The notes under the pieces are model-generated. The model ran no database searches. It was not told the DNA's origin and saw nothing but the letters and a program-made list of their open reading frames with translations. Both the position numbers and the translations under genes were made by a program. Shown here piece after piece: positions 1 to 32,942 of a stretch of 38,474 bases of DNA; the first letter of the stretch is position 1, and each line of letters opens with the position of its first letter. This DNA is from Pectinatus brassicae (lineage in GTDB: Bacteria > Bacillota > Negativicutes > Selenomonadales > Selenomonadaceae). The stretch lies in contig NZ_JACHFH010000027.1 in NCBI RefSeq assembly GCF_014201835.1, positions 1 to 38,474 on the forward strand, given 5' to 3'.

Positions 1-350
1 ACGCTGTACTATCCAGCAATGCTGATAGACTATGCCACGGCTTAAGGTTCATTATAAAATCTTTAGATTTCTGTCTTGACAAGTGAGCCATTATAAAGTG
101 TCCAAAAAACATTATGAAAAATAGTAAAAAAACATGTATATTTAAAAGTAGGCCACCATAATCTTTCTAGTTTTTTGGCAAAAAAATTGAATAAATTAGT
201 TGAATATTTCTCATTATAAAAATATCCTGCTACAAAAAAGAAAAGCACCAAATGATATAGTGAAACAAAATATCCTAAAATACCAATATGTCCTAAAACA
301 ACGGCTATTATCCCTAGTGCTTTAATAATATCCCAATATTTATCTCTCAT
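1..350 (-). pseudogene. Acyltransferase 3 family membrane protein, frameshifted and cut by window edge
   Basis: The readable 95-residue N-terminal part (63-350) has the opening of OafA/WbbJ-like acyltransferase-3 proteins: a first membrane helix ending in VVLGHIG, with the family's conserved His, then LFFFVAGYFY. Family members have about 330-380 residues and roughly 10 membrane helices, and they O-acetylate surface sugars. Here the frame stops at 63-65. A +1 shift near 62-80 continues without a stop to base 1 (reading KDFIMNL and then WHSLSALLD, plausible for the family), so I read this as a frameshifted gene or a sequencing slip rather than a natural end. Its ATG overlaps the stop of the upstream glycosyltransferase by 4 bases (ATGA), so it is the last visible gene of the polysaccharide operon. 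The family call is fairly sure, the frameshift less so. Confidence 0.6.
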
Positions 351-3300
351 TTTTCACTCCCATTTTTTACAATAGCACTATGTTTTAATAAAATTTCATT
401 ACGATCATTAGATAATTTTATTAAAAGATTTAAGCACTCTTCCGTACTATTTTTATCAATAACCCAACCGCTATTCATTTTTTTTATACGTTCTGCCGGA
501 GCGCCTATATTAAAGGAAATTATAGGATATCCAGAATATAAAGCTTCACTAGCTGTATAAGAATATGTTTCTGGCCAAATAGAAGGTATCAATACCACTG
601 CTGTACGATATTTAGCTAATAAATCAGATACATTAGTATTATCATATGGACCAGTTATTTCTAAAATACCATCTTTACTTTTATACGGCTTATTATGTAA
701 ATTGGTAATACCTATAACTTTTATATTAATTGGTAATTTATTTTTACGAATTAATTCTTCTAATTCATATATAATATTAGAACCCTTGTTTTCACCGATT
801 GCTCCTAATACCGTTATAGTTAAAATTTCATCTTCCAATACATCAGCATTAAAAGTCTGATGCACATATGAAGGTACCTCATGCTCTTTAACTGTAATTT
901 TTACATCACCATAATAACTATTAACTATTTGTGCTGTTGAATTACTTGGCGCTAAAACTTCTTTAGCTCCTAACAAAAATTCATGAAATACAGAACGCCA
1001 TTTCCCTATATCTTTACTTACATCATTATGTAGTGCCCTTAAACATTCATTACAACATTTCTCTTGTTTTTCATTATTACAATATAATTTTTTTTCATTT
1101 AACAATGTATATTCAGGACAAACTGCATAAAAATCATGCAGGAAAAAAATATATTCGCATTCAGCTGCTTTTATAAATTCTATAATTTTTTCAATTGGAT
1201 ACGTTACCAATTGGTTGATATATATCAAATTTATACTAAACGCATTTATTAATTTTTTAAACTCATTAGGTTTCATTAATTTCAAATCAAAATAAAATTG
1301 TTTTTCGTTTCCATCATTGTATACTTTCCACAAAAGTGTTTTACAGTCAGGTAACAATTCCATTACATGTATTCTTTTCGTAGTTTTCCATTTATCTATC
1401 AAATTATCTTGATAAACTTTTGTTCCTCCACCACTAGAATGATTTACAAACAATACTCCTTGCATTGATGATTTTTCTTTTTCTTGTTGAATATATTCAA
1501 CAAATTCACGAATATACTTCACAGGATCTCTTGCAATATAAGTGTCAACTAATCTTGTATATTCTGGATACCGTTCATTTAGTACTGCTAAATTTTCTTG
1601 TATTCGCTGCTCTTTACCTTTATCATGATGCTCGCCAAAGCTAACGCCATGTTTATGATATACAAATAAATTAGTTACCATAACATTATGATAGCCTTTT
1701 TGCATAGCCCTCATACACCAATCATTTTCTTCACAATAACCTTTTCCATAAACAGTATCCAATACACCTATTTCTGTTATGCATTTACGATTCAGCAGCA
1801 TACAAAATCCCACACCAGTAGGAATATCAAAAACTTTAGTGCCACCATATTCTTCAAATAGTTTATCGAGTTTTTCCACCGACCAATTGTCTGGTAATTC
1901 ATTGTCCTCACAAAAATGGGGATAAGAACAGATTGTAGCACTATTAGAAAACGGTGTAATTGAAGCAATTTTATTATCTCTTAATATTGGTAAATATAAT
2001 CTTTGCAGCCAATTTGGAGTCACTTCTGTATCTGTATTTAATAATACCGTATTATTTTCAGCTATTTTTAATGCACTATTAACACTCTCGATAAATCCCT
2101 TGTTTTCCTCGTTATTCATTATGGTTAACTTTTGTAAAAAAACAGGATATTCTTTTTGTTTTAATTCCAGTAAAAATTTTTCAATGTTATGGTCAGTGCT
2201 GCAATCATTAACTAAATACAAATTATAATTAACTGTAGTATTATTATATACAGTTTCAAGACATTTTTTTAAATATTCAAATGCATTATAAATAGGAATA
2301 ACAATATCTACTACTGTCCCTGCCGGTAATTCAACTGGCTCACTTGTAATATTATTATTCAGATATTTTTTTTCTAATTCGCCTGTAACTTCTTTGATAG
2401 CATCTGCATTCATTTTACTGTCTAATTTAACTAAAAATTGATGTAGTCCACCATAACGTAGTATTTTTATGGATTTTTTTATATTATTATAGTTTATCAC
2501 TTGATATGTTTTTTTATTTAAAATTTTTAATATAAATTTTATACAAAGACGTCTAGTAGAATTTACAGGCAAAAATTTATCTCTTACCTTATAATATTTT
2601 AGTAATACTCTATAGCCACGAGATTCTATTATTTTATTATATTCATTTTCTAATATATTATATTCATTTTCTAATATATTATATTCATTTTCTAATATAT
2701 TATATTCATTTTCTAATATATTATATTCATTTTCTAATATGTGATATTTTTTCTCTTCCTGTTTTCTTTTTTGATCTATATCATCAAAAAAATTTACAAT
2801 GGTTTTTTCATATTTTTTATTAGGAAATTGTAAAACTTCATCATAAAATTCTCTTTCTTTTTCAATATATTTAGGAGGTATATCAAAGAAATTTTTTTTA
2901 TATATTTTTGTCTGATACAATACTTTCTTAAATTTTTCTTTTCTTTCAATAAATCCTTCTAATGCCCTATATAATACAAATTTTTTAGGAATATTTGTAT
3001 ACAACCATTCATAATCTATAATCTTATATGAATTATTTGTTAAGATTATATTATCAAAGCTTAAATCAATATTCGTATTTCTACTTTCCTCACTAGCATT
3101 TCTCAAAAAAAACTCTTTATTATCTAATATCTCACCATGCAATATATCTGCTTCATAAAATTTCATCAATTTATCAAATTTATTAAAATTATTGCTATCT
3201 AACACTTCAACAATTTTATCTGCTAATGACATGCCTTCAACATACTCTATCTTTATAGTATAGTCATTTATTATATCGCAGGCAGCAATATGATTTTTCC

Positions 3301-3472
3301 CATATATTTTTGATAAAATTTTATAATTTTCATATATTGCTTTTATGTGTTTTTTTGCATCATTATTTAATGCTGTTTTTTTTATAAATGTGTTTTTTTC
3401 TTCTTGCCATATACTAGTTTCTATTTTATAATTTTGTTTTCTTTCATCAGAAAACTTAACATATTTTAACAT
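347..3472 (-). CDS. Multidomain protein: kinase-like domain, heptad-repeat coiled coil, GT2 and GT4 glycosyltransferases
   Basis: This cytoplasmic protein of 1041 residues probably finishes and extends a surface polysaccharide. Residues 1-235 look like an APH/protein-kinase-like fold: hinge-like IEYVEG (75-80), catalytic-loop-like IDLSFDN (135-141) and a metal-loop-like IDYEW (152-156). Residues 236-300 are predicted coiled coil and contain five perfect ILENEYN heptads (245-279). A GT2 domain starts near 388 (VDIVIPIYNAFEY, VNDCSTD, LNTDTEV). A GT4 domain fills about 690-1041 (GENKGS; PETYSYTASEAL with the E-x7-E pattern). AGGAG lies 7 bases before the ATG. It follows the methyltransferase by 4 bases and overlaps the acyltransferase by 4. 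Methyltransferase plus kinase plus coiled coil beside Wzm/Wzt recalls the chain terminator WbdD, here split. The glycosyltransferase calls are firm; the kinase and ruler roles are inference. Confidence 0.85.
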   Translation of the reverse strand: MLKYVKFSDERKQNYKIETSIWQEEKNTFIKKTALNNDAKKHIKAIYENYKILSKIYGKNHIAACDIINDYTIKIEYVEGMSLADKIVEVLDSNNFNKFDKLMKFYEADILHGEILDNKEFFLRNASEESRNTNIDLSFDNIILTNNSYKIIDYEWLYTNIPKKFVLYRALEGFIERKEKFKKVLYQTKIYKKNFFDIPPKYIEKEREFYDEVLQFPNKKYEKTIVNFFDDIDQKRKQEEKKYHILENEYNILENEYNILENEYNILENEYNILENEYNKIIESRGYRVLLKYYKVRDKFLPVNSTRRLCIKFILKILNKKTYQVINYNNIKKSIKILRYGGLHQFLVKLDSKMNADAIKEVTGELEKKYLNNNITSEPVELPAGTVVDIVIPIYNAFEYLKKCLETVYNNTTVNYNLYLVNDCSTDHNIEKFLLELKQKEYPVFLQKLTIMNNEENKGFIESVNSALKIAENNTVLLNTDTEVTPNWLQRLYLPILRDNKIASITPFSNSATICSYPHFCEDNELPDNWSVEKLDKLFEEYGGTKVFDIPTGVGFCMLLNRKCITEIGVLDTVYGKGYCEENDWCMRAMQKGYHNVMVTNLFVYHKHGVSFGEHHDKGKEQRIQENLAVLNERYPEYTRLVDTYIARDPVKYIREFVEYIQQEKEKSSMQGVLFVNHSSGGGTKVYQDNLIDKWKTTKRIHVMELLPDCKTLLWKVYNDGNEKQFYFDLKLMKPNEFKKLINAFSINLIYINQLVTYPIEKIIEFIKAAECEYIFFLHDFYAVCPEYTLLNEKKLYCNNEKQEKCCNECLRALHNDVSKDIGKWRSVFHEFLLGAKEVLAPSNSTAQIVNSYYGDVKITVKEHEVPSYVHQTFNADVLEDEILTITVLGAIGENKGSNIIYELEELIRKNKLPINIKVIGITNLHNKPYKSKDGILEITGPYDNTNVSDLLAKYRTAVVLIPSIWPETYSYTASEALYSGYPIISFNIGAPAERIKKMNSGWVIDKNSTEECLNLLIKLSNDRNEILLKHSAIVKNGSEK
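2636..2740 (-). repeat. Five tandem 21-bp repeats encoding ILENEYN heptads
   Basis: Five head-to-tail copies of a 21-bp unit (on the plus strand ATTATATTCATTTTCTAATAT with slight variation at the edges) encode residues 245-279 of the multidomain glycosyltransferase. Each copy adds exactly seven residues, so gain or loss of a copy keeps the frame and changes the coiled coil by one heptad. Near-identity at the DNA level suggests recent slippage or recombination. Confidence 0.9.
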
Positions 3473-9111: not shown

Positions 9112-10755
9112 TTACTTATTTTTTTCTGGCACAATAACATCTGCTTCAAATAAACGATGCCACGGAAAGCTTACCTGCAATTTATCCCAATTATAATTAT
9201 TAAATATCTTGGCAAAATCGTATTTTTCTACTGCTTTATTCATTAGTGATTCAGCATAATTTTGTGCCTGAGCTGTTCTGCTCATGGTATCGCCATAATT
9301 ACCTTGTCCGCTAAAGCTATCCATTTTATTGGCTACCTGCTGACGGATATTTGCCTGATAAAACCAATCATCAAGATAACGTGGTACAATCATCTTCATT
9401 GTTTCTTCTTTATTGGCATAAGAAGACAACATTCCCATGCCAATGGTATAGCCACTGCTGTTAGTCGGTGTATTCCAACCGGCATAGGCCTTTAACTGCG
9501 ATAAGTAGTTTTTCTGCCACAGCATATTCATTAATGCATTATCGGAGCCATTGCCAAAGTCAATATCGGCAATACCAACATTTTTGTCTTGCATGATATA
9601 TTTTCCTGCCATATCAACAAAGCTAGCAGTATTTTCATGTGGTGTAATTGTATTATTCAGCTCATTAGCTGCATATGTTTTACCATATTTATCTGTATTT
9701 ACCAGTAATACAAAATCCGCTCTTTTATCATTAGGGATTTCAATACCACCGGCCATTTTTATATGAGTTTTAACTGAGGCAGATATTTTTTCATTGGAAT
9801 AAGCCGGTACTGTATCGCCGCCTGTTCCTTCAGCATAATGTACGCTAATAAACGGTATATCACCTTTCATCTGATTTACTGCTCGTGTCATCATAAGTAA
9901 TGCCAATTCATCGAGGCCTGCTACAGATTGATAGTTTTCACCATTTATGTCACCTGCATATGTATCGAGCAGACGACGTTCTCTATCTGTTTGAGAATAC
10001 TCGGCATTGTCATCACAACCCAAAATCAAATAAGATATATCTTTATTTTTTACTAAATCCACTAAATATTTATTAACTGTAAAATTACCTGCCCTGCGCA
10101 ACATCCAGTCCTGCAAATCTTTAGCCGGAATTTGTGCTTTTAAAGTTTTTAGCTCTTTTTCTTCTTTACCTGTTAAACCGTCTTTTTCCTGTTTATCCAG
10201 CAGTGCCGTATAGCGCGCAATACTCGTACCATATACACGATAATATTCTGGTTCTTCAGACGAAGCTGCGCTAGTTTGCGGTGTACGCATTATCGAACTG
10301 AATACATATATCGGCAAATATGGATATTTTTGATGTAATTCATCGAAAGCATTTTGCGCTCTTTTTTGACATGTAGCAATTGTTAAATCATGCTTGCGTG
10401 ATGCCACAAGACTACCATAAACTAACGCATCTGATGATAATACAGCATAGTCTGCTTTATAAGCATTTTTAAGAACCCAATCGGCTAGTTCTTCCGGATG
10501 TCCTAAATCATCGCGATTGCCGATTAAATTTTCTGGCGGCGTGATTACATTATAACCAAGCGCACGAATATTATCGACCGTTTGATGGAACGATATCGGA
10601 CGATTATCATGCGGCACAAACAAAATTGTCTTTTTAAATTGGGCAAATGCAGTATTGGTCAGTAAAAAAACTGCCAACACAGCTAATAATATGTAATTTA
10701 TTATATATTTCAAGATATTATCACTTCTTTCAAAAAATAATGATTCTCCATCCAT
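9112..10755 (-). CDS. Secreted DUF4127 family protein
   Basis: A protein of about 547 residues of the DUF4127 family, recognised from the opening after the signal peptide (ILFVPHDNRPIS), then LSSDALVYGSLVASR, with a long alpha/beta body containing YLILGCDDNAEYSQT and the late FPWHRLFE stretch. An N-terminal hydrophobic segment (YIINYILLAVLAVFLL, ending NTAFA) is a probable signal peptide, so the protein acts outside the inner membrane. The ATG at 10755 has no clear ribosome site. A TTG at 10713, directly before the signal peptide, is an equally good start. TATAAT lies about 15 bases before the ATG, so the gene probably has its own promoter. The biochemical role of the family is not known to me; the conserved DNRP and D/H residues suggest an enzyme. 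Confidence 0.8.
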   Translation of the reverse strand: MDGESLFFERSDNILKYIINYILLAVLAVFLLTNTAFAQFKKTILFVPHDNRPISFHQTVDNIRALGYNVITPPENLIGNRDDLGHPEELADWVLKNAYKADYAVLSSDALVYGSLVASRKHDLTIATCQKRAQNAFDELHQKYPYLPIYVFSSIMRTPQTSAASSEEPEYYRVYGTSIARYTALLDKQEKDGLTGKEEKELKTLKAQIPAKDLQDWMLRRAGNFTVNKYLVDLVKNKDISYLILGCDDNAEYSQTDRERRLLDTYAGDINGENYQSVAGLDELALLMMTRAVNQMKGDIPFISVHYAEGTGGDTVPAYSNEKISASVKTHIKMAGGIEIPNDKRADFVLLVNTDKYGKTYAANELNNTITPHENTASFVDMAGKYIMQDKNVGIADIDFGNGSDNALMNMLWQKNYLSQLKAYAGWNTPTNSSGYTIGMGMLSSYANKEETMKMIVPRYLDDWFYQANIRQQVANKMDSFSGQGNYGDTMSRTAQAQNYAESLMNKAVEKYDFAKIFNNYNWDKLQVSFPWHRLFEADVIVPEKNK

Positions 10756-10851
10756 GTAGTATGAACAATTATAAGATATTCTACTTTAAGTAATTCTATT
10801 CCTTCCAAAACAGCAATATTTATTTATACAATAGAAAAAGAGTCATACCAA

Positions 10852-10899
10852 AACCCTTCCGTCACTGCTTCGCAGTGCCACCTTCCCTGAAGGGACGGC
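10852..10899 (+). repeat. Palindromic repeat unit 1: solo module A
   Basis: A lone module A: AACCCTTCCGTC, hairpin CACTGC/GCAGTG, CCACC, hairpin TTCCCT/AGGGA, closed by GACGG pairing with CCGTC. No module B follows. It sits in the gap between the DUF4127 gene and the terminator of the glycerophosphodiesterase gene. The stem reads CACTGC/GCAGTG instead of the usual CATTGC/GCAATG, a compensated change. Confidence 0.85.
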
Positions 10900-12125: not shown

Positions 12126-12180
12126 ATTACTCTAACTGCTCCCTCATAATAAATTTTATTTTTATCAATGTCAAAAACAT

Positions 12181-12373
12181 AACCCTTCCGTCATTGCTTA
12201 CGCAATGCCACCTTCCCTATGCTGTAGTTCTTAGTGCTTTAGCACTTAGAAATATAGTACCCACAGTGCAAGGGACGGCATTGGAACCACAGAAAAAATT
12301 AAAAGTTCTAAAAATATTAATGGTTGTATGGCTCCCATGCAGGGGAGCTGGCGGCGAAGCCGTCTGAGGGGTT
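12181..12373 (+). repeat. Palindromic repeat unit 2 (A with C insert, spacer, B)
   Basis: Module A (12181-12278) carries a module C hairpin (TTAGTGCTTTAGCACTTAG core) in the loop of its TTCCCT/AGGGA stem. A spacer of about 50 bp follows, then module B (12330-12373) with stems CTCCC/GGGAG and CGGC/GCCG. It begins AACCCTTCCG and ends CTGAGGGGTT. The whole gap 12126-12867 contains only units 2-4 and a terminator; short open frames here are repeat sequence, not genes. Confidence 0.9.
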
Positions 12374-12397
12374 ATTAATAATATAAGGTAAAAGAAT

Positions 12398-12631
12398 AAC
12401 CCTTCCGTCATTGCTACGCAATGCCACCTTCCCTAGAGGGACGGCAATAAAACCACAGAAAAAATTAAAAGTTCTAAAATATTAATGGTTATAAGGCTCC
12501 CCTATATGCTGTAGGTCTTAGTGCTTTAGCACTTATGCTACAGTTCTTTGCACTTCAGTGCTTAGAAATGTAGTAGGCAAGAGATACAATACACACCGTG
12601 TGGAGCTGGCAGCAAAGCTGTCTGAGGGGGT
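12398..12631 (+). repeat. Palindromic repeat unit 3 (A, spacer, B with nested C inserts)
   Basis: Module A is plain here, whereas module B is split at the tip of its CTCCC/GGGAG hairpin by a long C-type insert that itself contains a second C hairpin. The spacer is nearly identical to that of unit 2. A linker of 24 bp containing GGTAAAAGA separates it from unit 2. Confidence 0.85.
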
Positions 12632-12652
12632 ATTTAATAATAGTAGATAAAA

Positions 12653-12701
12653 TACCCCTTCCGACTTGACTTCGTCAAGCCACCTTCCCTAAAGGGACGG
12701 C
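12653..12701 (+). repeat. Palindromic repeat unit 4: solo module A
   Basis: Module A only, 21 bases after unit 3. Its first hairpin is CTTGAC/GTCAAG instead of CATTGC/GCAATG: the sequence changes but the pairing is kept. The following 125 bases are AT-rich with no feature I can support. Confidence 0.85.
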
Positions 12702-14390: not shown

Positions 14391-14551
14391 AACCCCTCAG
14401 ACGGCTTCGCCGCCAGCTCCCCTACATGGGAGCCTTAGACCATAACTATATTTATAACAATTATAAAAAAACCATGCCTTTATTAATATTCATGGTTCCA
14501 AAGCCGTCCCTTCAGGGAAGGTGGCATTGCGTAAGCAATGACGGAAGGGTT
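14391..14551 (-). repeat. Palindromic repeat unit 5 (inverted, upstream of DUF559 copy 1)
   Basis: In plus orientation this reads module B (AACCCCTCAGACGG...), spacer, then module A ending GGAAGGGTT, so the unit lies inverted relative to most others. It has no C insert. It ends 38 bases before the ATG of the first DUF559 gene and is joined to it by GGGTTATCTTTAC, the same sequence (in reverse) that begins the linker between ordinary units. Confidence 0.9.
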
Positions 14552-14589
14552 ATCTTTACTTGCTTATTATTTTAACGAGGTTATATAAC

Positions 14590-14985
14590 ATGTTATATTA
14601 TAATTCTCATAATAATCATTTGGCCAATAATTTACGAAAAAACATGACCAAAGAAGAACGCCATCTATGGTATGATTTTTTACGAAATTATCCTATAAAA
14701 TTTTATCGACAAAAACAAATTGGAAACTACATTGCTGATTTTTATTGCCACAAGGCTAAGCTTATTATCGAACTTGACGGCAGCCAACATTATGAAAAAG
14801 ATAACCAACATGCTGATAAAAAACGCTCAGCTTATTTTAATCGTTATAATTTGTACGTTATGCGTTTTTCTAATCTTGATATACATCAACATTTTTCTGA
14901 AGTATGTATTTCAATAGATGAATATATAAAAAATAACAACCCCTCAGACGGCTTCGCCGCCAGCTCCCCTACAGGGGAGCCTTAG
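14590..14985 (+). CDS. DUF559 endonuclease-like protein, copy 1
   Basis: A small protein of 131 residues of the DUF559 family, related to very-short-patch-repair-like PD-(D/E)XK nucleases. Visible are the N-terminal LRKNMTKEERHLWYDFLR helix region, KFYRQKQIGNYIADFYC with the first acidic residue, IIELDGSQHYE (E-x-D-G-x2-H) and the closing YVMRFSN strand. The ATG at 14590 has GAGG 9 bases upstream; a longer frame opens at 14560 without a ribosome site. The last 15 codons (NPSDGFAASSPTGEP) and the stop lie inside palindromic module B, so the tail is repeat-encoded. Its location inside an array of palindromes suggests a role in their spread or maintenance, which is inference; no activity can be shown from sequence. 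Confidence 0.85.
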   Translation: MLYYNSHNNHLANNLRKNMTKEERHLWYDFLRNYPIKFYRQKQIGNYIADFYCHKAKLIIELDGSQHYEKDNQHADKKRSAYFNRYNLYVMRFSNLDIHQHFSEVCISIDEYIKNNNPSDGFAASSPTGEP

Positions 14986-15147
14986 AACATTTCTATATTT
15001 ATAGCAATTATAAAAATATAGCTTTTATTATAATATTCATGGTTCCAAAGCCGTCCCTCTCACTGTGTGTACTATATTTCTAAGCGCTAAAGCGCAAAGA
15101 ACTATAGCAAGGGAAGGTGGCATTGCGTAAGCAATGACGGAAGGGTT
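14938..15147 (-). repeat. Palindromic repeat unit 6 (inverted, between the two DUF559 genes)
   Basis: Module B overlaps the 3' end of DUF559 copy 1, including its stop codon. The spacer is almost identical, as the reverse complement, to that of unit 11 at 28475-28747, 13 kb away. Module A contains a C insert in its CCCT/AGGG loop (core GCGCTAAAGCGC). Confidence 0.9.
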
Positions 15148-15185
15148 ATCTTTACTTGCTTATTATTTTAACGAGGTTATATAAC

Positions 15186-15581
15186 ATGTTATATTATAAT
15201 TCTCATAATAATCATTTGGCCAATAATTTACGAAAAAACATGACCAAAGAAGAACGCCATCTATGGTATGATTTTTTACGAAATTATCCTATAAAATTTT
15301 ATCGACAAAAACAAATTGGAAACTACATTGCTGATTTTTATTGCCACAAGGCTAAGCTTATTATCGAACTTGACGGCAGCCAACATTATGAAAAAGATAA
15401 CCAACATGCTGATAAAAAACGCTCAGCTTATTTTAATCGTTATAATTTGTACGTTATGCGTTTTTCTAATCTTGATATACATCAACATTTTTCTGAAGTA
15501 TGTATTTCAATAGATGAATATATAAAAAATAACAACCCCTCAGACGGCTTCGCCGCCAGCTCCCCTACAGGGGAGCCTTAG
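15186..15581 (+). CDS. DUF559 endonuclease-like protein, copy 2
   Basis: Identical in sequence to the copy at 14590-14985, 596 bases further on: 131 residues, with the acidic residue in IADFYC and the IELDGSQH motif of PD-(D/E)XK-like nucleases intact, and with GAGG 9 bases before the ATG. It too ends inside a module B (stop at 15579-15581). Perfect identity over the whole frame points to a very recent duplication or to gene conversion. The next gene (PhnD-like) begins 24 bases after the following palindromic unit, so transcription from here could run into the two-component operon. Confidence 0.85.
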   Translation: MLYYNSHNNHLANNLRKNMTKEERHLWYDFLRNYPIKFYRQKQIGNYIADFYCHKAKLIIELDGSQHYEKDNQHADKKRSAYFNRYNLYVMRFSNLDIHQHFSEVCISIDEYIKNNNPSDGFAASSPTGEP

Positions 15582-15743
15582 AACATTTCTATATTTATAG
15601 CAATTATAAAAATATAGCTTTTATTATAATATTCATGCTTCCAAAGCCGTCCCTTTCACTGTGTGTACTATATTTCTAATCGCTAAAGCGCAAAGAACTA
15701 TAGCAAGGGAAGGTGGCATTGCATAAGCAATGACGGAAGGGTT
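15534..15743 (-). repeat. Palindromic repeat unit 7 (inverted, after DUF559 copy 2)
   Basis: A near copy of unit 6, differing at a few positions towards the module A end (for example CATGCTTCC for CATGGTTCC, and GCATAAGC for GCGTAAGC in the hairpin loop). It includes a C insert in module A. It abuts the ribosome-binding region of the PhnD-like gene. Confidence 0.9.
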
Positions 15744-15766
15744 AAAATTCTAAACACGAGGTTTTT

Positions 15767-18880: not shown

Positions 18881-19096
18881 GGATAGTTGATGTTTCGGTT
18901 TTCCTCTTCGGAGGAGGTGGTGCTTTGAGTACATTTCAGGTCTTGTCATTAATGATAAGCTTTGGTTTACTTATAGTAGCCATTATTTCATGCACTAAAA
19001 TGAAATAAACCGACTCACGTATGTAAGCCGGCTTTCTTTTCAAAACACTAATCACAATCAGGAAAGCCGAGCTACGACGCATCAACTATCCTTTTT
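18881..19096 (+). ncRNA. Type I toxin mRNA, structured, copy 1
   Basis: The predicted transcript is about 216 nt. Its 5' arm GGATAGTTGATG (18881-18892) pairs perfectly with CATCAACTATCC (19080-19091), which is followed by five T residues, so the closing stem also acts as terminator. Inside, TCCTC-TTCG-GAGGA (18902-18915) puts the Shine-Dalgarno sequence in a stem capped by a UUCG tetraloop, and CGGCTTTC pairs with GAAAGCCG near the 3' end. Such 5'-3' closure and hiding of the ribosome site are known from BsrG/TxpA-like type I toxin mRNAs. The same architecture recurs at 30693-30908. Confidence 0.75.
18925..19008 (+). CDS. Small hydrophobic toxin peptide, type I toxin-antitoxin (holin-like toxin type), copy 1
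   Basis: A 27-residue peptide starting at TTG: MSTFQVLSLMIS, then a hydrophobic run to IISC and a basic end (TKMK). The opening followed by a single membrane-spanning segment and a short Lys-rich tail matches the holin-like toxins of Firmicutes (TxpA/BsrG/YonT relatives), which damage or depolarise the membrane when overproduced. GAGGAGG lies 7 bases before the TTG but is locked in a hairpin. The almost identical peptide at 30738-30821 differs at only three residues, with the start codon GTG in place of TTG. I am confident it is expressed as a peptide; the toxin assignment rests on family likeness and the RNA context. Confidence 0.75.
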   Translation: MSTFQVLSLMISFGLLIVAIISCTKMK

Positions 19097-27750: not shown

Positions 27751-27769
27751 GTTAACTTTATAACGCTTT

Positions 27770-28030
27770 AACCCTTCCGTCATTGCTTACACAATGACAC
27801 CTTCCCTTGCTGTAGTTCTTAGTGCTTTAGCACTTTATGCTACATTTCTTTGCACTTTAGTGCTTAGAAATGTAGTAGGCAAAGCAGAAATACAGTACAC
27901 ACCGTGAAAGGGACGGCTTTGGAACCATGAATATTAAAAAGTCATATATTTTTACTAACCTACTATAAATAATAATAGTTATCTAAGGCTCCCCTTTAGG
28001 GGAGCTGGCGGTGAAGCCGTCTGAGGGGTT
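27770..28030 (+). repeat. Palindromic repeat unit 8 (A with double C insert, spacer, B)
   Basis: Module A holds a C insert that itself contains another C insert (two TTAGTGC-type hairpins), so it is about 95 bases longer than a plain A. The TTCCCT/AGGGA arms are still present on both sides of the insert. Module B is plain. This unit opens the array 27770-28747, which fills the gap between the chemoreceptor and nitroreductase genes; I see no gene in that gap. Confidence 0.9.
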
Positions 28031-28052
28031 ACTATATTACTAGGTAAAAGAT

Positions 28053-28263
28053 AACCCTTCCGTCATTGCTTTGCAATGCCACCTTCCCTATGCTGTAGTT
28101 CTTAGTGCTTTAGCACTTTAGAAATACAGTACACACAGTGCAGGGACGGCTATAGAACCATAACTATTAATAAAAGTGATATGTTTTACTAACCTGTTGA
28201 AAATATATGCATGCTTAAAGGCTCCCCTTTAGGGGAGCTGGCGGCACAGCCGTCTGAGGGGTT
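28053..28263 (+). repeat. Palindromic repeat unit 9
   Basis: Module A has one C insert, then spacer, then plain module B ending CTGAGGGGTT. It is joined to unit 8 by a 22-base linker containing GGTAAAAGAT. Confidence 0.9.
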
Positions 28264-28286
28264 ACTAATATACCATGTAAAAGAAT

Positions 28287-28452
28287 AACCCTTCCGACTC
28301 AGCTTCGCTGAGCCACCTTCCCTAGAGGGACGGCTGTAAAACCGTAAAAACTAATAAAAGTAACCTTTTTTTCTATACAACCTGCTAAGTATTTAGTTAT
28401 GGTTCAAAGGCTCCCCTGTAGGGGAGCTGGCGGCGAAGCCGTCTGAGGAGTT
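28287..28452 (+). repeat. Palindromic repeat unit 10
   Basis: The plainest full unit on this side: no C insert, 166 bases. The first hairpin of module A is CTCAGC/GCTGAG, a fully compensated change from CATTGC/GCAATG. A 23-base linker separates it from unit 9. Confidence 0.9.
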
Positions 28453-28474
28453 ATTATATTAATAGGTAAAAGAT

Positions 28475-28747
28475 AACCCTTCCGTCATTGCTTATGCAAT
28501 GCCACCTTCCCTATGCTGTAGTTCTTAGTGCTTTAGCACTTTAGAAATACAGTACACACAGTGCAGGGACGGCTTTGGAACCATGAATATTATAATAAAA
28601 GCTATATTTTTATAATTGCTATAAATATAGTTATGGTCTAAGGCTCCCATATATGCTGTAGGTCTTAGTGCTTAGAAATGTAGTAGGCAAAGCAGAGATA
28701 CAGTACACACCGTGAAGGGAGCTGGCGGCGCAGCCACCTGAGGACTT
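28475..28747 (+). repeat. Palindromic repeat unit 11 (C inserts in both A and B)
   Basis: C inserts sit in the hairpin loops of both module A and module B. The spacer is nearly identical to the reverse complement of that in unit 6 beside the DUF559 gene. Module B ends imperfectly (CCACCTGAGGACTT), suggesting decay at the array edge. Confidence 0.88.
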
Positions 28748-28775
28748 ACTAAAGAGATGGCTTTTGACAGCATAA

Positions 28776-30692: not shown

Positions 30693-30908
30693 GGGTAGTT
30701 GATGTTTCGGTTCTTCCTCGACAGAGGAGGTGGTGCTGTGAATACATTTCAGGTCTTATCTCTAATGATAAGCTTTGATATTCTTATAGTTGCCATTATT
30801 TCATGTACTAAAATGAAATAGACCGACTCACACATGTAAGCCGGCTTTCTTCCAAACACATTCATTATATGAGGAAAGCCGAGCTTGCAGGCATCAGCTA
30901 TCCTTTTA
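30693..30908 (+). ncRNA. Type I toxin mRNA, structured, copy 2
   Basis: Second copy of the module at 18881-19096. The 5' arm GGGTAGTTGATG (30693-30704) pairs with CATCAGCTATCC (30892-30903); relative to copy 1 each arm has one change and both produce G-U pairs, so the stem is conserved while the sequence drifts. The Shine-Dalgarno hairpin keeps its five pairs (TCCTC/GAGGA, 30715-30728) while the loop changes from TTCG to GACA. A CGGCTTTC/GAAAGCCG stem and a T-run at the end are also present. Confidence 0.75.
30738..30821 (+). CDS. Small hydrophobic toxin peptide, type I toxin-antitoxin, copy 2
   Basis: A 27-residue peptide from a GTG start, MNTFQVLSLMIS, then DILIVAIISC and TKMK. It differs from copy 1 at residues 2, 14 and 15 (N for S, D and I for G and L). 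GAGGAGG lies 7 bases before the start, inside a hairpin. An Asp in the membrane segment is unusual and might weaken toxicity. Conservation of the peptide between two loci 12 kb apart, while the loop sequence around it varies, argues that it is a real gene. Confidence 0.75.
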   Translation: MNTFQVLSLMISFDILIVAIISCTKMK

Positions 30909-32282: not shown

Positions 32283-32329
32283 TTTTATTACCTCTTTCTA
32301 TTTCAATATACAAGTATTTATTATTTTTT

Positions 32330-32495
32330 AACCCTTCCGTCATTGCTTCGCAATGCCACCTTCCCTAAAGGGACGGCTTAAAGGATACACCAGTTTTAAC
32401 TAACACAATACGAATTATTATATAACTCACAATATATACTTCTGGTCTAAAGGCTCCCCTCTAGGGGAGCTGGCGGCACAGCCGTCTGAGGGGTT
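32330..32495 (+). repeat. Palindromic repeat unit 12
   Basis: A plain full unit of 166 bases without C insert, starting 48 bases before the amidohydrolase start. With units 13 and 14 it fills the gap 32283-32942 between preA and the amidohydrolase gene; short open frames in this gap read repeat sequence and are not genes. Confidence 0.9.
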
Positions 32496-32518
32496 ATCTC
32501 TATACCATGCAAAAGAAT

Positions 32519-32709
32519 AACCCTTCCGACTCAGCTTTGCTGAGCCACCTTCCCTTGCTATAGTTCTTTGCGCTTTAGCGCTTAGAAATATAGTACACAC
32601 AGTGAAAGGGACGGCTAAAAAACCAGCAAAATGGAAAATATATATTTATATGTTCATGGTTCAATGGCTCCCCTCTAGGGGAGCTGGCGGCACAGCCGTC
32701 TGAGGGGTT
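32519..32709 (+). repeat. Palindromic repeat unit 13
   Basis: Module A carries a C insert (core GCGCTTTAGCGC), then spacer and plain module B. Together with the linker it is repeated almost without change at 32733, with a period of 214 bases. Confidence 0.9.
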
Positions 32710-32732
32710 ATCTCTATACCATGCAAAAGAAT

Positions 32733-32923
32733 AACCCTTCCGACTCAGCTTTGCTGAGCCACCTTCCCTTGCTATAGTTCTTTGCGCTTTAGCGCTTAGA
32801 AATATAGTACACACAGTGAAAGGGACGGCTAAAAAACCAGCAAAATGGAAAATATATATTTATATGTTCATGGTTCAATGGCTCCCCTCTAGGGGAGCTG
32901 GCGGCGCAGCCGTCTGAGGGGTT
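32733..32923 (+). repeat. Palindromic repeat unit 14 (tandem copy of unit 13)
   Basis: A near-perfect copy of unit 13, 214 bases further on; the visible difference is GGCGCAGCC for GGCACAGCC in module B. It ends 20 bases before the preA stop codon. Confidence 0.9.
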
Positions 32924-32942
32924 AATTCTTTTACATACTCTC

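Follow-up and report, generated by a model that had tools for sequence, protein, structure and literature searches.

A DUF559 nuclease gene between palindromic modules in Pectinatus brassicae: a candidate mobile element of about 0.5 kb

Does a small gene that lies within an array of palindromic repeats encode the enzyme that moves them? The question is raised by a DUF559 gene of Pectinatus brassicae, situated on a contig (G000:C27) that was analysed whole and is called the window here (38,474 nucleotides). A reading made from the sequence alone had placed this gene between a module A and a module B, where other copies have only a linker, and had taken it for the candidate mobilising enzyme of a full element, A-gene-B. 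The placement stands, the other copies having an AT-rich linker at this position, but the reading described a single gene and two identical copies are present.

The locus and its predicted nuclease

Across positions 14391-15743 the order is B-sp-A-gene-B-sp-A-gene-B-sp-A (sp, spacer; Table 1). The first ORF (P0001), which encodes 131 residues from an ATG at 14590, stands between the A module at 14503-14552 and the B module at 14938-14981, and its last 15 codons and stop (14938-14985) fall in module B, as had been claimed. Module A has the layout GCCGTCCC..GGGAAGGTGGC-stem-GACGGAAGGGTTA and module B the layout AACCCCTCAGAC-stem-CAGCTCCCC..GGGAGCC; the module starts read across the analysis are CCCTCAG, CCCTTCCG or CCTCATCCG. 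An Rfam search of the window gave zero matches at the gathering threshold. The two tandem units of 596 bp differ at one position in the spacer (15042), at two in the insert at the tip of module A2 (15059 and 15084) and at none in the gene. A tandem duplication also occurs in another genome, where a second DUF559 gene copy begins after the first cassette (L021, G087:C166). Other repeats were noted in the window: positions 18901-19095 and 30714-30907 share a repeat of 152 nt (86%) and, after it, one of 39 nt (85%) with AGGAAAGCCGAGC, a similar string being present in contig C24, and a 21-bp tandem repeat of 5.4 copies (2635-2748) lies within a long minus-strand ORF (347-3472).

Table 1. Genes, modules and arrays of the window
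Feature	Position	Strand	Basis
Solo A module	10851..10899	-	pattern search, sequence reading
Gene-less array A'-sp-B'-linker-A'-sp-B'-linker-A'	12180..12701	-	direct repeats, pattern search
Module B1, right-end type: hairpin stem + CAGCTCCC palindrome + GGGAGCC	14391..14434	+	sequence reading, pattern search
Module A1, left-end type: GCCGTCCC palindrome + variable hairpin + CGGAAGGGTTA; left end of element 1	14503..14552	+	sequence reading, pattern search
Tandem unit 1 (A1 end + gene 1 + B2 + spacer + A2 start)	14514..15109	+	direct repeat, spacing 596
DUF559 (predicted Vsr-like PD-(D/E)XK) nuclease gene, copy 1, 131 aa	14590..14985	+	PF04480 E 1.8e-27, translation, structure model
Module B2, right end of element 1; codes for last protein residues	14938..14981	+	sequence reading, pattern search
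Module A2, left end of element 2; ~50-nt hairpin inserted at palindrome tip	15050..15148	+	pattern search
Tandem unit 2	15110..15705	+	direct repeat, 3 mismatches to unit 1
DUF559 nuclease gene, copy 2, sequence identical to copy 1	15186..15581	+	second match in contig, sequence comparison
Module B3, right end of element 2	15534..15577	+	pattern search
Module A3 with tip insert	15646..15744	+	pattern search
Gene-less array, four A'-sp-B' + three linkers	27769..28752	-	pattern search, sequence reading
Gene-less array, three A'-sp-B' + two linkers	32329..32928	-	pattern search, sequence reading
Tip-hairpin places (also on contigs C24, C38)	12248, 12580, 15066, 15662, 27886, 28120, 28543, 28694, 32584, 32798		

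The window protein matches PF04480 (DUF559) at 95.8 bits against a curated cut-off of 20.6 (model positions 4-106 of 109, E 1.8e-27), and DUF559 is the only Pfam family above cut-off. Fifteen columns are invariant among 59 aligned homologues, including D50, E61, D63, G64 and H67, which bears out the earlier claim that the PD-(D/E)XK-like residues are kept. The predicted structure (mean pLDDT 89.6) retrieves 3hrl (E 6e-6) and I-Bth0305I (E 7e-4) in Foldseek, and in VIA-align it superposes on 3hrl with Z 15.1 (rmsd 1.0, 91 aligned), on I-Bth0305I with Z 12.1 (rmsd 2.8, 96 aligned) and on Vsr with Z 10.8 (rmsd 2.1, 100 aligned), the closest fold outside DUF559 being that of the homing endonuclease I-Bth0305I. 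The structure 3hrl is NGO0050, a DUF559 protein of N. gonorrhoeae, where the DUF559 gene (L293) lies, by eye, between two palindromic-repeat copies. A likeness to TnsA was considered and set aside as weak (Foldseek E 0.97; VIA-align Z 7, in the range that the tool calls common). By the fold of the model and the conserved acidic and histidine residues, the window protein is predicted to be a Vsr-like PD-(D/E)XK nuclease.

Two DUF559 proteins have been treated before, in papers of which parts were available. E. coli YcjD, like the window protein, is a predicted PD-(D/E)XK nuclease, placed in that superfamily near Vsr (PMC1189080). The DUF559-domain protein VsrA of C. crescentus has been connected with cytosine methylation and with DNA damage; the available text of that study points to mismatch repair as the function of the Caulobacter protein, which counts against the reading as an element (PMC12907096).

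The cassette in relatives and at other sites

Relatives are encoded by at least 565 of 592 stretches scanned, and the best 80, mostly from Clostridia and Negativicutes and many of them metagenome-assembled genomes, were kept. Modules were scored by a strict token, CA[CG]C plus a pyrimidine palindrome. At 81 loci, the first token met upstream, within 400 bp, is left-type at 51, right-type at 9 and absent at 21, and the first one downstream within the same distance is right-type at 52, left-type at 13 and absent at 16; token density is 0.21 per kb far from the gene and 0.015 per kb in shuffled sequence. Within 200 bp, across 108 loci (112 less 4 duplicates), tokens stand in left-right order at 40, in right-left order at 7, as the same type on both sides at 6, on one side at 48 and nowhere at 7, as compared with 1, 0, 0, 42 and 266, respectively, for 309 mechanical control ORFs of the same loci. 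Modules thus bound DUF559 genes elsewhere on at least one side at 101 of 108 loci (43 of 309 control ORFs), and the same cassette recurs in different flanks, so that the proposal of A-gene-B as the full element is well supported. The reversed (7/108), same-type (6/108) and single-sided (48/108) loci count against it.

Homologues without modules would, according to the sequence-only reading, speak against the element. Two of the seven loci that lack a strict token are cut by contig ends and five have degenerate modules by eye; a long DUF559 protein of 1542 residues in the same genome (L003) gave no token when searched, and by eye no module was seen beside the Thermoactinomyces homologue (L164). 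The part of this test that concerns the C-terminal tail is circular, since module B supplies the codons of that tail. At 24 of the 108 loci the right module contains or adjoins the stop codon.

The two ends of a cassette also resemble each other. Left and right palindromes of one locus match with a mean of 0.927 versus 0.799 in shuffles (sd 0.014), and the match is exact at 15 of 40 loci versus a shuffled mean of 3.2 and a maximum of 7 in 300 shuffles. Ten cassettes (L056, L060, L064, L071, L077, L079, L089, L092, L093 and L096) are 82-98% identical and differ in their wider flanks; in pairs with L064, similarity breaks off about 53-61 bp upstream of the ATG and 8-30 bp downstream of the stop, close to where the modules end. 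L079 and L089, which form the closest pair, are 97.7% identical over 516 bp, with some 30-40 bp more, promoter-like, common to both on each side. A promoter-like repeat with TGTCGAA motifs, which we take to be 0A-box-like, flanks cassettes L079, L089, L093, L060 and L077.

At the level of sequence, the cassette recurs at different sites and in different phyla with the same two-ended layout, which by token count covers Bacillota and by eye was seen in single loci of Pseudomonadota, Deinococcota and Cyanobacteriota. It stands between two transhydrogenase genes on a Sphingomonas plasmid and between paaD and paaZ in Deinococcus, and in the Deinococcus hpa operon the element occupies two different gene junctions in two species. 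At the other loci viewed by eye, palindromic repeats adjoin the DUF559 gene in all but Thermoactinomyces, those of E. coli and Photobacterium on the 3' side only. A further dispersed family, with repeats some 160 bp long and unlike the modules, was noted at L061:4074-4232 (about 100 copies among the places listed, in genus g21, mostly 70-83% identical).

Orthologous sites were compared among related genomes. Upstream of a gene that is presumably comF-like, a full cassette stands in G080, a gene-less remnant in G073 and G087, and no element in G109, G063 and G021; the remnant consists of the left module and only the end of the right module, joined near the ATGGG of the start codon. Seven sites yielded no clean empty site or target duplication, their flanks being too divergent or complex. 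In the Sphingobium carboxylase operon, which lacks the element in a relative, the site that holds it differs further by a duplicated junction and an additional gene; at Azospirillum prfA no empty site came to light, since 99-100% of the query is contained in each of the seven records with at least 80% cover. A tRNA/T-box site is filled in G080 and G109 and bare in G021, with flanks too divergent to compare. Site L233 has a module in G073, G109 and G063 and an altered one in G080; at site L229, where the stretch fails to align, G021, G080 and G063 have no module, and site L225 gave partial matches only.

Gene-less copies, changing stems and module number

By pattern search the whole genome holds 58 A and 47 B modules, with none for a reversed-pattern control. 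In the window, an A-pattern match at 9162 falls within a gene and was left out of account. Twenty module loci on 18 contigs were fetched, 14 chosen for A and B matches together and six for one listed match only, and five of the latter six proved to have the partner module. An A-linker-B unit is present at 19 of the 20, two of them with an altered A that the pattern missed, and the remaining locus (L291) has an A module without adjoining B. By eye, these dispersed units share arms outside the modules, which makes them a MITE-like family; the "spacers" of the arrays are probably adjoining arms. The sequences thus support gene-less A-short linker-B copies that are dispersed like MITEs.

The linkers, said earlier to measure 22-24 bp, are 26-28 nt between GGG and CCC in the six cases of the window arrays, and are TTAA or TTTAA in 12 of the 19 dispersed units; five of the remaining seven start with TTA and end with TAA. 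The resemblance of the gene's 5' edge to linker edges was confirmed (GGGTTATCTTTAC compared with, for example, GGTAAAAGATAACCC): the summed alignment score is 137 versus a shuffled mean of 105.5 (sd 6.6, maximum 125 of 200) for 13 pattern matches, of which two are probably not linkers and the array copies are not independent. The 3' edge hardly aligns (scores 0-3). The view of linkers as internal-deletion remnants accordingly holds in part, with one orthologous site that has the full element in one genome and a remnant in others in its favour, and linkers that match the 5' edge only, many being just TTAA, against it. In the direction of the gene, the window arrays start with B and end with A in three of four cases, which simple tandem insertion of A-gene-B alone does not explain and recombination between repeats could.

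Each module combines a conserved GC-rich palindrome with a second hairpin whose stem is free to vary in sequence yet stays self-complementary. In 78% of 427 distinct modules, taken from the fetched loci with plasmid and E. coli records left out, the palindrome is immediately preceded by a perfect stem of 4 bp or more, versus 8% when shuffled, and 181 different stem-loops occur among 334. At eight sites common to sister species, compared by eye, the stem is kept in six and replaced yet self-complementary in two (L221/L239 and L233/L257/L258); this small sample would fit conversion from other copies. A hairpin of about 50 nt (..TGTGTACTRTATTTCT..) is found only at the outer-palindrome tip of A or B modules and in one orientation, in 35 of 35 copies from the window, C24, C38 and 18 module loci (22 of 22 in the window, C24 and C38 alone), where a module half was required within 30 nt upstream with 1-2 mismatches allowed. 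This hairpin resembles an element whose insertion targets are the tips of hairpins.

If the gene has a part in the spread of modules, their numbers may be expected to differ between genomes with and without it. One module type was counted in 151 genomes of the family, 48 of them with a strong short DUF559 match (E 1e-20 or lower; G067, with two fragments, and G005, with a weaker match, were counted as without). It is present in 35 of these 48 and in 29 of the other 103, with medians of 6 and 0 (Fisher 3.8e-7; reversed control 0). A genus-stratified permutation, in which the mixed genera contribute 44 versus 54 genomes, gave p 5e-5, the floor of the test, and 1e-4 after two modules per gene were subtracted. 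In these sequence counts, gene presence goes with a higher number of cognate modules. Thirteen of the 48 gene-bearing genomes, that of the window included, do not have the one module type counted family-wide, and the 29 of 103 genomes with modules but no strong match count against the element. Within the window's genus, its own genome has the A and B modules given above, G054 with an intact gene has 0 A and 8 B, and 0 A and 0 B were found in G034 (no match), G067 (two fragments) and G005 (E 3.4e-10, a 250-aa frame).

In E. coli, at least 80% of ycjD with its modules is covered in 3364 of 5426 genomes. As in Pectinatus, palindromic modules adjoin the gene, and one module occurs at a median of 18 places per genome (range 1-32, among 5375). 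Unlike the window gene, ycjD occupies one locus in the records listed, between sapF and fabI, with clear modules, by eye, on the 3' side only. Among 60 records taken down the ranking, less one of 232 kb that was dropped, the number of places is 13-29 in the 37 that have ycjD and 1-21 (median 4.5) in the 22 chromosomes that lack it; module number follows ycjD, the same trend as within genera, and is confounded by lineage. Two strains without ycjD have an efflux operon after sapF and so offer no empty site at the locus. Module-free alleles exist at yihR-yihS but differ by more than an insertion, and at zntA-tusA the neighbours vary beside the module.

Proposed movement of the modules: known systems and alternatives

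The sequence-only reading had compared the locus with RAYT/REP and with autonomous/MITE pairs, and the arrangement bears this out. As in REP/RAYT systems (TnpA-REP, REPtrons, REPINs), a nuclease gene is flanked by inverted palindromic repeats of a family that is also dispersed without the gene, in solo and paired forms and mostly between genes. Membership among RAYTs does not follow, because the defining HUH tyrosine (Y1) transposase is absent: DUF559 is the only Pfam family of the predicted enzyme, and its best structures are Vsr-like nucleases of the PD-(D/E)XK type. The modules also differ in having two hairpins in about 45 bp with a hypervariable stem, and the gene cassette itself appears to move. 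Autonomous IS/MITE pairs likewise consist of complete copies and of internally deleted ones that keep the same ends, and terminal inverted repeats are present here, the left and right modules being alike in reverse complement and the dispersed units having, by eye, arms beyond them. Unlike an IS, the unit has no second gene and hence no DDE, serine or tyrosine recombinase, and no target duplication was seen at the seven sites, with their divergent or complex flanks. The DUF559 element may thus work like REP/RAYT or IS/MITE pairs, by analogy of arrangement.

The three loci L293-L295 contain no GTCATTCCC, which we take to be the motif of CGTC-tagged REPs. On this count and on their published shape (a stem of 8-9 bp, a loop of 4-5 nt, a CGTC tag and a CCA-like tail; PMC3733652, in the text available), the modules were rejected as members of that superfamily. 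The likeness is one of distribution, in that both are dispersed palindromes, present in some of the same groups (alphaproteobacteria, Neisseria), and the accessible part of the description states that CGTC-tagged REPs "apparently lack a dedicated transposase" (Di Nocera et al. 2013; PMC3733652).

We judge it somewhat more probable than not that the gene and its two modules constitute a mobile element of about 0.5 kb, left module-DUF559 nuclease gene-right module, which spreads by homing-like, nuclease-driven copying of modules. That the nuclease moves the modules is what we infer from these patterns. The Vsr-like enzyme would recognise the module as a duplex, a cruciform or a single-strand hairpin and would nick or cut at or beside it. 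Host repair would then fill the break from another copy, taking over a module or the entire cassette, in a kind of homing by copy-and-paste that needs no integrase. Where the gene between two modules is lost, gene-less units would result, and A-short linker-B units and solo modules would be the non-autonomous partners.

The element so proposed has its nearest counterpart in catalytic fold among the EDxHD/Vsr-like homing endonucleases, which, so far as known, occur in introns or as free-standing phage genes. The model shares the fold of I-Bth0305I (3r3p; Z 12.1), and in both the gene would be copied by repair of its own cut; we know of no such endonuclease gene with palindromic ends of its own. 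A pure homing gene is the alternative to be weighed first. Here the modules would be older and spread by other means, and the DUF559 gene would encode an endonuclease that cleaves paired modules at their linker, so that the gene and its flanks are copied in. The fold of the model and the position of the gene in the place of the linker agree with this, and co-conversion would also end similarity at the module edges. We hold it to be rather unlikely, since it makes no prediction that the number of modules should rise with the gene inside genera, and for cassettes within metabolic operons an older module pair has to be assumed.

Still less likely, in our estimation, is a host Vsr-like repair nuclease carried passively by recombination between repeats that another enzyme, for example an HUH transposase, mobilises. 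Such a passenger would be in keeping with the tie of C. crescentus VsrA, in the text available, to cytosine methylation and DNA damage (PMC12907096) and with the single locus of ycjD in the E. coli records listed and its presence in 3364 of 5426 genomes; against it stand the recurrence of the two-ended layout, by token count in Bacillota and by eye in Pseudomonadota, Deinococcota and Cyanobacteriota, and the prediction of module number by gene presence within genera. That the palindromes are ordinary bidirectional transcription terminators, near which small genes find safe places, is very improbable, for although A runs precede and short T runs follow the outer palindromes at several loci, the control ORFs of the same loci do not have the pattern (both sides at 1 of 309), the second hairpin changes in sequence (78% of 427 modules versus 8% shuffled) and the dispersed A-B units have common arms.

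With the nuclease-driven element as the preferred reading, a wider and more tentative one suggests itself, in which hairpin elements would form a class that spans the bacteria and has the DUF559 genes as its autonomous members, moved by a single Vsr-like nuclease that acts on hairpins and by host repair, with no transposase or integrase. Such action on hairpins would also account for stems that change wholesale yet remain self-complementary and for the presence of the second, inserted hairpin only at module-hairpin tips. In the open-access literature, so far as its text was available, none of 14 papers that mention DUF559 gave a link between the family and repeats, and the matches listed there for module strings look unrelated. 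For REPs, dispersed palindromic repeats that have no known mover are named as an unsolved problem (PMC3733652, in the text available). The DUF559 family is common, E. coli being among its carriers, and has no known function; if the nuclease drives the modules, the family would gain a function and bacteria a new and very small route of DNA mobility.
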